Virus record (IMG/VR): IMGVR_UViG_3300027963_000022
Location: 1 to 33,878 of that record
Direction: 5' to 3' (one strand)
DNA length: 33,878 nt
Source of the DNA: a virus
A program made the translations under genes and the position numbers. Below the pieces are notes generated by a model, which saw only the letters and a list, made by a program, of their open reading frames with translations, searched no databases and was not told where the DNA came from. How positions within the stretch are numbered: position 1 is the first letter of the stretch; each line of letters opens with the position of its first letter. Positions 24,342 through 27,762 of the stretch are shown here, in pieces.

Positions 24342-24606
24342 TTAACTGTTTCCTTAAAGCCGCACATCTTTCTTTAAGAATTCCATGAATGTCAGATTTT
24401 TCATTATCAGCAAATTTTAAAATAGGCTTATCCAGGGCTTCTTTAGCCATTTCAATATACCGATCAACTTCAAGCCTATCTTCACCGCCTATGGCAGCGT
24501 TGCTATGCCCAATAGGTTTTCCCATAGTGTCATAATAAACCTCACGAATTTCAAAATAATCTTCGTAAGAGTTACTCATGTTTACCAGCCTTAGATTCCA
24601 AGTCAT
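24331..24606 (-). CDS. Conserved phage protein (TWNLRLVN type)
   Basis: This 91-aa protein starts MTWNLRLVNMSNSYEDYFEI, then REVYYDTMGKPIGHSNAAIGG, blocks shared by many small phage proteins of unknown function. The C-terminal half is helical. I chose ATG 24606, which overlaps the TGA of the 33-aa membrane protein (ATGA), over an in-frame TTG at 24618. It is the second gene of the operon starting at 24704. Confidence 0.78.
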   Translation of the reverse strand: MTWNLRLVNMSNSYEDYFEIREVYYDTMGKPIGHSNAAIGGEDRLEVDRYIEMAKEALDKPILKFADNEKSDIHGILKERCAALRKQLSDS

Positions 24607-24704
24607 GTGTTCACCCAATAAAGAATCACTAACAAAAAGAACATCACCGCACCAAGTACGGCAAATATTCCAACGGAAAAAATTAACATTAAATTTTCAA
24701 TCAT
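24603..24704 (-). CDS. Single-pass membrane peptide, 33 aa, probably leaderless
   Basis: ATG 24704 to TGA 24603 encodes 33 aa, nearly all one membrane helix (LMLIFSVGIFAVLGAVMFFL then LVILYWVNT). It ends by ATGA overlap with the conserved 91-aa gene. The -10 of the operon promoter (TATACT, 24716-24711) ends 6 nt before the ATG, so transcription should begin at or next to the start codon. There is no Shine-Dalgarno. The peptide may be functional, or may chiefly couple translation into the operon. Confidence 0.6.
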   Translation of the reverse strand: MIENLMLIFSVGIFAVLGAVMFFLLVILYWVNT

Positions 24705-24710
24705 GTTGAA

Positions 24711-24738
24711 AGTATATGTTAAGTTGTCTTAATGTTAA
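24711..24738 (-). promoter_or_regulatory. Promoter of the minus-strand replication operon with perfect operator
   Basis: On the minus strand -35 TTAACA (24738-24733), spacer 16, -10 TATACT (24716-24711). The spacer is occupied by the palindrome TTAAGTTGTCTTAA (24719-24732), one of three perfect TTAAG-N4-CTTAA sites. A bound repressor would block RNA polymerase directly. The same operator overlaps a weaker plus-strand promoter (TTGTCT 24724-24729, TATAGG 24748-24753) pointing into the structured non-coding region. Confidence 0.72.
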
Positions 24739-24759
24739 TAATTATTTTATAGGTGTTTT

Positions 24760-25135
24760 CCCTAATGTGTTGTTTTTTTGCCATAGGTTGCCCAAAGGTG
24801 ATAAGCCTTCATCCATTCAAGATGTGTCCTGAACTAATGCTTCCTAAGATAATGTTCAATCGTTATAGGGCTTGTCTCACCATTGTTCCTATAACTTGTG
24901 CTGTACCCATTTAAGTCAGCGAGGCTTGCAGTAAGGTGTATACCAGCCTATGTTCTATTCCACGCCACCCAGGTAGGTGCTTAATATCGTTTGGAGTACG
25001 AAAGGGAATGAACAATAAAAAAGGGCTTTAGGAGTGGCTTTATGCTAGAACGGCTTGGGAAATGCCTCTTATCTCATTTCCTAAACCCACAAAGTCACTT
25101 CTAAAACCCTAGGTTATCGAGTGTTCTAGTCCTCA
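24760..25135 (+). ncRNA. Candidate structured non-coding RNA with pseudoknot
   Basis: There is no convincing reading frame in about 415 bp (24739-25154). Read as plus-strand RNA it has: hairpin 24862-24869/24888-24895 (8 bp); stem 24951-24961/25005-25014 (10 bp, one bulge) enclosing two small hairpins (24966-24979 and 24987-25001); a long stem 25022-25041/25091-25110 (19 of 20 paired); an inner 10-bp hairpin 25055-25064/25075-25084; and CTAGAAC (25045-25051), inside the long-stem loop, pairing with GTTCTAG (25123-25129), a pseudoknot. Four G-U pairs in the long stem, inner hairpin and pseudoknot favour plus-strand orientation; only one favours minus. Exact ends are guesses. It could also be a replication origin or a 3' UTR. 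No known RNA family is recognised. Confidence 0.55.
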
Positions 25136-25154
25136 ATAATTAAATTCTACTACA

Positions 25155-25385
25155 TTATTCCAACTCAGGCCATATTAGCTTGTAATTATTTGGAAACAGG
25201 TTTTTACGGGTAACTAACCCATGCGATTCTTTTTCTAGAGTGGCAGCTAGGATCACCAGTTTATCGTAAGGAATTTCCCCGTTTTGCCACATAGATACGG
25301 CTGGAACGGATACATTAACCATCTTTGATACCCGTGTGCAACCACCTAATAACCTAATCATTGCTGTTGCTGTAATTTTATCCAT
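25155..25385 (-). CDS. Cro/YdaS-like helix-turn-helix repressor
   Basis: This 76-aa DNA-binding protein has an HTH at about residues 8-35 (LLGGCTRVSKMVNVSVPAVS, with the W-Q-N-G turn after it), followed by IPYDKLVILAATLE, and ends NLFPNNYKLIWPELE, the C-terminal signature of Cro/YdaS-type phage regulators. The gene has its own promoter whose -10 overlaps an operator variant at its start codon (25385-25398), implying autoregulation. It lies among the perfect operators at 24719 and 25440, so it is the prime candidate to bind them. No CI-type peptidase domain is present. Confidence 0.85.
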   Translation of the reverse strand: MDKITATAMIRLLGGCTRVSKMVNVSVPAVSMWQNGEIPYDKLVILAATLEKESHGLVTRKNLFPNNYKLIWPELE

Positions 25386-25427: not shown

Positions 25428-25456
25428 TTGCAATATATTTTAAGTTAGCTTAATAT
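25428..25456 (+). promoter_or_regulatory. Promoter of forward recombination operon with perfect operator
   Basis: -35 TTGCAA (25428-25433), spacer 17, -10 TAATAT (25451-25456). The perfect palindrome TTAAGTTAGCTTAA (25440-25453) fills the spacer and enters the -10. The predicted transcript start, near 25463, coincides with a small hairpin. It drives the 70-aa, SSB-like, HNH and nuclease genes. Confidence 0.68.
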
Positions 25457-25495: not shown

Positions 25496-25708
25496 ATGAG
25501 TGAGCAAGATCAAGACTTCAACAACTTCCAACAACATTTGGAACGCATCTTTAAAGACCTCGAAGATGGGGTATTTATTACAGCAGATGAGATTGGTGAC
25601 TTACGCTATGCGTGTGGTTTGCCATCGCCAATCCGCAACAACCATGTAAACCCCGTTGTGCGTGATGTTATTAATGATTTTTCAACTATTTTTGGAGCAA
25701 CAAAATGA
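25496..25708 (+). CDS. Small acidic early protein, 70 aa
   Basis: ATG 25496 with AGGAGA 6 nt upstream; an in-frame GTG at 25475 lies inside the 5' hairpin and is rejected. The 70-aa product is acidic and helical (NNFQQHLERIFKDLEDG, then EIGDLRYACGLPS). It is the first gene of the operator-controlled operon and overlaps the SSB-like gene by ATGA. No family is recognised; it could be a small host-takeover or regulatory protein. Confidence 0.72.
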   Translation: MSEQDQDFNNFQQHLERIFKDLEDGVFITADEIGDLRYACGLPSPIRNNHVNPVVRDVINDFSTIFGATK

Positions 25709-26319
25709 TTATTTCAGACACATCAAAAGAATTTAAGATAGCCCCAGCAGGCTTGCACATGGCTAGACTTTATAGTTGTATTGACTTAGGACACCAGGCT
25801 ACCGAATGGGCTGGTGAAACCAAGATTATGCACAAAGTTGTATTGACTTGGGAATTGCATGGTGATGACGATGCAGGTCAACCATTAAAAACGGATGACG
25901 GTAAACCTTTAATCGTATCTAAGCGTTATACAGTTAGCCTTGGAGATCAAGCACGATTGCGTCAAGACTTAGAATCTTGGTCTAACAAAAAGATGACCGC
26001 AGAAGATCGTAAAAACTTTGACTTAAAAGGTTTGCTGGGCAAGTTTTGCATGGTTAATATTACCCATTCAGAAGATGGCAAATACGCCAACATTAGTGGC
26101 ATTAGTCCAGTACCGTCAGCATTGCGTAATGTCCAGCCTGAAGGCATAAACCCTATAAATCATTTTTGGTTAGCTGAATTTGACCAAGCTAAATATGATG
26201 CGTTGCCAAAATACTATAAAGAAAAGATTACAGAAAGTAGTGAATGGCGTGGTCAAAAAGCTAGAGATGCTGAAACGCCTGCAATTGTTGATGATGAAAT
26301 TGGAGATATTCCTTTTTAA
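25705..26319 (+). CDS. Phage single-stranded DNA-binding-like protein with SSB acidic tip
   Basis: This 204-aa protein has an OB-like beta-rich core of about 150 residues (LHMARLYSCIDLG, then MHKVVLTWELHG, VSKRYTVSLGD, LLGKFCMVNITHSEDGKYANI) followed by an acidic, disordered tail ending DDEIGDIPF. This end mimics the bacterial SSB C-terminal tip (DDDIPF), which recruits repair and replication proteins. The gene order SSB-like then RecB-like nuclease fits a recombination/replication module. Lack of a helicase or polymerase suggests the tip recruits host enzymes. The assignment to ssDNA binding is from architecture and family memory. Confidence 0.78.
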   Translation: MIISDTSKEFKIAPAGLHMARLYSCIDLGHQATEWAGETKIMHKVVLTWELHGDDDAGQPLKTDDGKPLIVSKRYTVSLGDQARLRQDLESWSNKKMTAEDRKNFDLKGLLGKFCMVNITHSEDGKYANISGISPVPSALRNVQPEGINPINHFWLAEFDQAKYDALPKYYKEKITESSEWRGQKARDAETPAIVDDEIGDIPF

Positions 26320-27733: not shown

Positions 27734-27762
27734 TTGACATAGTTAAGGTGGCTTAATAAACT
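27734..27762 (+). promoter_or_regulatory. Promoter of second forward operon with perfect operator
   Basis: Consensus -35 TTGACA (27734-27739), spacer 17, -10 TAAACT (27757-27762). The third perfect operator TTAAGGTGGCTTAA (27743-27756) exactly fills the spacer up to the -10. It drives the four genes 27805-28838. Confidence 0.75.

Follow-up and report, generated by a model that had tools for sequence, protein, structure and literature searches.

Which RNA or RNAs does the gap behind a phage regulator gene encode, from which strand are they read, and how might they act? The window, the whole stretch of DNA analysed here, spans the 33,878 bases of a virus record from a metagenomic freshwater phage, in which profile searches found phage terminase, portal and tail genes. 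Between the gene of a 76-residue HTH regulator and an operon of small genes on the minus strand, a sequence-only reading had proposed a structured RNA with a loop-to-downstream pseudoknot, which it could assign to no known family and placed in a stretch without genes. Indeed, the gap contains no open frame conserved across relatives, and a scan for tRNAs and tmRNAs returned none. The region comprises two RNA modules, named A and B, the window carrying type A1 and type B1. Neither of them, nor any other part of the window, matches a family of Rfam 15 at the gathering score. At E ≤ 10, the best match over 24600-25250 is to a microRNA hairpin model, whose cut-off it misses by far (E-value 0.032), and A1 gives no match at either threshold. 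The main features are as follows.

25155-25385, minus strand: gene of the 76-residue HTH regulator, upstream of the RNAs (phrog_35, transcriptional repressor, 1.6e-7)
25144-25149, minus strand: putative B promoter -10 box, TAGAAT, lying no more than 11 bases past the repressor stop
25017-25137, minus strand: RNA B, type B1, about 121 nt, with ends predicted from the -10 box and the U-run
25017-25022, minus strand: U6 run of a predicted intrinsic terminator, immediately after stem P1
24778-25004, minus strand: RNA module A, type A1, about 227 nt, with uncertain ends, from a 30-sequence alignment
24711-24738, minus strand: promoter match of the left operon (TTAACA-16-TATACT), containing an operator-like palindrome (24719-24732)

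The regulator also resembles P22_Cro (6.4e-5, under the Pfam cut-off). Calling it a "repressor", and this locus a lysogenic switch, is an assumption, since a search of the record for a tyrosine integrase returned none. Exact TTAAGNNNNCTTAA palindromes at 24719-24732, 25440-25453 and 27743-27756 are candidate operators; two of them flank the repressor-RNA region and the third precedes gene 27805. A 33-residue ORF, MIENLMLIFSVGIFAVLGAVMFFLLVILYWVNT (24603-24704, minus strand), begins right behind the operator-linked promoter and looks like a small membrane protein.

Two modules exchanged among relatives

Using the regulator and the 204-residue protein encoded at 25705-26319 as queries, we collected 160 related loci. 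Wherever both flanking genes can be placed, the gap is noncoding, and extra minus-strand genes adjoin it in some relatives. In L005, L008, L025, L230 and others, such genes, of about 110-256 residues, lie between the regulator and B. Alignment divides the region into module A and module B (25005-25152), which occur together or apart. At least four sequence-unrelated types (A1-A4) were found at the A position. At least six (B1-B6) were found at the B position, and these share one common architecture. A1, A2 and A3 are each found with both B1 and B2. The structure proposed from the sequence is thus real, but a single RNA of 370 nt is rejected, because A and B swap independently among the relatives. 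Two circular phage genomes in GenBank, MW202674.1 and MW202753.1, carry A1-like sequence together with B elements of the same topology that have TATAAT in front; their RNA locus is annotated as hypothetical proteins. On one record of 44,384 bases (IMGVR_UViG_3300047557_000594), two copies of A3+B2+regulator are present (L166 and L169), which may reflect a duplication, the fusion of two phages or a faulty assembly.

The fold of B1 is composed of a 5' hairpin, a main stem of 22+13 base pairs (P1 and P2) and a loop-to-interior pseudoknot of 7 base pairs.

25117-25136, minus strand: H1, 5' hairpin (25132-25136/25117-25121), whose loop contains one arm of the pseudoknot
25123-25129, minus strand: first pseudoknot arm (RNA sequence CUAGAAC), from covariation
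25045-25051, minus strand: second pseudoknot arm (RNA sequence GUUCUAG), flanked by P2 and the 3' arm of P1
25088-25109, minus strand: 5' arm of stem P1, with two-sided change in 10 of its 22 pairs
25023-25044, minus strand: 3' arm of stem P1, followed directly by U6
25052-25087, minus strand: P2, hairpin within P1 (25075-25087/25052-25064), from the alignment

When 26 aligned B1 sequences are read as the minus strand, standard pairs fill 94.9% of cells, a value that falls below 50% once the partners are slid by one column. Two-sided changes are observed in 20 of the 47 pairs, compared with 9.6 after shuffling, and none of 500 shuffles reached this number. As the shuffle control ignores the relatedness of the sequences, the sliding control and the pair-type count weigh more. 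The pseudoknot shows two-sided change in six of its seven pairs and not a single broken cell across the 26 sequences. H1 is intact in 100% of cells, with one two-sided change counted and additional ones visible by eye in L258 and L237. The P2 loop, GAGAUAAGAGG, is kept in most B1 sequences. Taken alone, B folds with a z-score of -4.72 on the minus strand and -4.02 on the plus strand, neither reached by any shuffle. The B fold with its pseudoknot is therefore conserved, and those of its elements drawn from the sequence have held up. The long stem, first placed at 25022-25041/25091-25110, corresponds to P1 and, like the pseudoknot, shows strong compensatory change; the nested hairpin corresponds to P2.

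The other B types keep this topology with new sequence. Across types, one or two pseudoknots of 5-10 base pairs are rebuilt each time. B2 has a second pseudoknot, formed between the inner hairpin's loop and the linker that follows the 5' hairpin; its mean best helix is 7.2, versus 4.5 when partners are shuffled (at most 5.1 over 500 shuffles). B3 to B6 show this second knot too, by eye only. It is not present in B1, where the pairing equals that of shuffled sequences.

Module A1 has a structure of seven helices, in which 98.2% of cells pair across 30 sequences and two-sided changes affect 14 of 38 pairs (none of 500 shuffles). Because these helices were picked while viewing the alignment, this covariation counts as support rather than as an independent test. 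By itself, A1 folds no better than its shuffles (z-score -1.26), so that the case for its structure stands on covariation. Two hairpins are best documented by compensatory change.

24900-24920, minus strand: A1 hairpin GCUGAC/GU-CAGC, with two-sided change in 5 of 6 pairs
24862-24895, minus strand: A1 hairpin of 8 base pairs, with two-sided change in 5 of 8 pairs

The latter had been recognised in the sequence, and its strong compensatory change bears it out. Loop positions 24877-24881 of this hairpin may pair with 24797-24801, a candidate pairing that is invariant in the alignment. Of a bulged stem proposed at 24951-25014, the two inner hairpins are conserved and the outer stem is not, its right arm being, by eye, variable flank or the sequence of another B type. 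Taken together, the covariation in homologues for which the sequence-only reading had asked is found in both modules.

Strand and transcription signals of B

Three mutually independent lines of evidence support the minus strand: the wobble pattern, the U-run with its -10 box, and the orientation of an Rfam family in relatives. An A-C cell on the plus strand is a G-U cell on the minus strand, and across relatives G-U cells on the minus strand exceed those on the plus strand in B1 (96 versus 55), in the main B2 helices (about 246 versus 45) and in A1 (53 versus 4, or 23 versus 4 when one invariant pair is omitted). In the window's own B, the two strands are about even. The four-to-one excess of G-U pairs claimed for the plus strand is therefore not borne out. 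The third line comes from RF02932 (Betaproteobacteria-1), which reads on the regulator strand in the A slot of relatives. More pairs are also kept on the minus strand than on the plus strand, and the count of further pair types in B1 is reached by 7 of 500 shuffles on the minus strand versus 127 of 500 on the plus strand.

The opposite reading was that a plus-strand RNA starts at an operator-controlled promoter and runs antisense into the repressor gene. Most helices would form on that strand too (89.9% of B1 cells hold). However, the wobble pattern, the U-run, the -10 box and RF02932 all point to the minus strand. No plus-strand promoter match is found near the A start and no plus-strand terminator match at the B end, and the operator-linked promoter match points to the minus strand (24738-24711). 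Since the RNA is on the repressor strand and begins beyond the stop of that gene, downstream and free of overlap, an antisense action on the repressor is not supported either. We therefore reject a plus-strand RNA, for which we see hardly any likelihood left.

On the minus strand, B carries its own signals, and their sequences are conserved. Variants TAGAAT, TACAAT, TATACT, TATAGT and TATAAT of the -10 box are observed before B. Among sites drawn from a regular-expression set, which is a subset of all sites, at least five of six positions match in 7 of 7 B1 and 16 of 21 B2 sites (23 of 28 distinct sites in all), versus 2-3% of control windows. The box mostly lies 6 to 8 bases ahead of the 5' hairpin, and it travels with B where another gene intervenes after the repressor (L230, L247, L248 and L250). 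The window's TAGAAT is an imperfect -10, and no convincing -35 was found for the B promoter, this element being weak or absent. At the other end, U5-U8 follow the P1 stem directly on the minus strand in every B type; a run of at least U5 is present behind the stem in 26 of 26 aligned B1 sequences, in 44 of 44 aligned B2 sequences and in the reference copies of B3-B6. B would thus end in an intrinsic terminator, with a U-run at once after a stem, which a simple terminator scanner misses because of the long loop. From these signals, the 5' end of the transcript is predicted near 25137 and the 3' end near 25017.

Possible roles of RNA B

We favour, and think fairly probable, a reading in which B is an independent small RNA of the phage, equipped with a promoter and a terminator of its own, that acts by shape via a protein, A being a second RNA. 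RNA polymerase would start at the -10 box just past the repressor stop, make the RNA of about 121 nt and halt at B's own P1 stem and U-run. The product would fold into a stem with one loop-to-interior pseudoknot, as in the window, or with two, as in several other types. It may then bind a protein of the host or the phage, which would recognise its shape, rather than base-pair with a fixed target. Action by shape is most likely, given that the shape persists although almost the whole sequence changes; from this conservation we infer protein binding. B would additionally end repressor transcripts ahead of the divergent early-left promoter. A would be a second structured RNA of the same strand, produced, we presume, by read-through of the B terminator or from a weak promoter.

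The main rivals are a mere terminator and an attenuator for A. B may be only an elaborate terminator, the 3' end of the repressor operon mRNA, that blocks early-left read-through and shields the mRNA, with no small-RNA role; it could also be merely the processed 3' end of the repressor mRNA. A terminator role agrees with B's place, on the repressor strand and immediately after the repressor or whichever gene closes its operon, and with the stem and U-run of every B type. Yet the -10 box stays with B at a fixed distance upstream despite inserted genes, and the pseudoknots re-made in each type exceed what a terminator needs. On balance, a terminator role alone seems unlikely to us. An attenuator would be a regulated leader whose pseudoknotted fold and terminator gate reading on into A or the gene behind, as in RNA antitoxin-terminator-toxin or riboswitch units. 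In most relatives B indeed separates A from the -10 box. In L192 and L173, which lack B, A3 is seen by eye directly behind a -10-like box, which in L192 is GTAGTAGAAT, identical to that of the window. By eye as well, a -10 box and a B-like RNA of the same topology directly precede a protein gene in L063 and L082, with no A between, so that B appears to be a portable unit. Precedent is given by the AbiF RNA RCd22, in which a terminator ahead of abiF limits read-through (PMC12373285). Against such gating, B1 has no conserved alternative antiterminator fold and the B types have no ligand-binding core in common; we hold it to be rather improbable. In L063, the gene behind the B-like element resembles, by eye, an HNH nuclease.

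Compared with type III toxin-antitoxin RNAs and RCd22, B is likewise structured, has its own predicted promoter and intrinsic terminator and sometimes stands directly before a gene. In contrast to them, it has no visible tandem repeats and no Rfam match, and no ToxN or AbiF gene was found adjoining it. No toxin gene was found among the scanned neighbours of the window; in L063 and L082, B is followed by protein genes. GOLLD and ROOL, the large ornate phage RNAs, are also rich in pseudoknots and without known function, but B and A are much smaller and match no Rfam family. Lambda OOP, P22 sar, P1 c4 and the P4 CI RNA are phage small RNAs, from immunity regions among other places, that work by antisense pairing. 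B and A resemble them in being encoded beside the repressor region. Unlike them, B has no unusual complement in the phage (longest 13 nt, versus a shuffle mean of 11.3 and maximum of 14), and its sequence is not conserved between types. A literature search found no description of the B topology. One may tentatively go further and regard B as a new class of phage small RNA set by its topology, namely a promoter, a hairpin loop paired into the terminator stem, often a second interlocked pseudoknot, and a U-run. This class, of at least six types exchanged as cassettes, would bind proteins, for example as a counter-defence decoy or an RNA antitoxin. Pseudoknotted RNAs so well supported by compensatory change and without an Rfam family are uncommon, and a fold that survives the rebuilding of its sequence suggests that selection acts strongly on shape. 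The exchanged types B1-B6 and A1-A4 offer natural variants for testing.

RF02932 in the A slot of relatives

The A3 type of module A, which stands beside B1 or B2 elements in some relatives, is filled by RF02932, a multi-hairpin RNA of unknown function; the window's A1 remains unmatched. Over model positions 1-120 and on the regulator strand, the scores are 107 bits in L079, 93.9 in L192, 93.1 in L173 and 86.8 in L233, for a gathering cut-off of 49.4 bits. The boundary between A3 and B was taken from the sequences of the relatives. An orphan RNA is thereby placed in a phage repressor region.

Host genomes were searched as well. A B1 covariance model, run without a positive control, had no match in 399 Burkholderiales genomes. 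A search of species genomes with the 204-residue neighbour protein returned none, and an A3 search of plasmids gave no match. The sole genome match of the A3 pattern (L211) was rejected, being GC-rich sequence with no RF02932 match. RF02932 itself passes its cut-off in 4 of the 399 genomes; in the Burkholderiales genomes inspected by eye, no B precedes it. Within about 5 kb, its neighbours include HmaB/HmaC and a type IIG enzyme in L223, a PDC-S06 protein in L225, PLD and caspase-domain proteins in L222, an S24 repressor with RdgC in L224, and ordinary genes such as Mn catalase in L221. Thus, defence genes or a prophage repressor are close to RF02932 in several of six loci (L221-L226). A link with defence is only a functional lead, drawn from context in a few Burkholderiales genomes. 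In Acidovorax phage AP1, a short RF02932-like stretch follows the primase gene.
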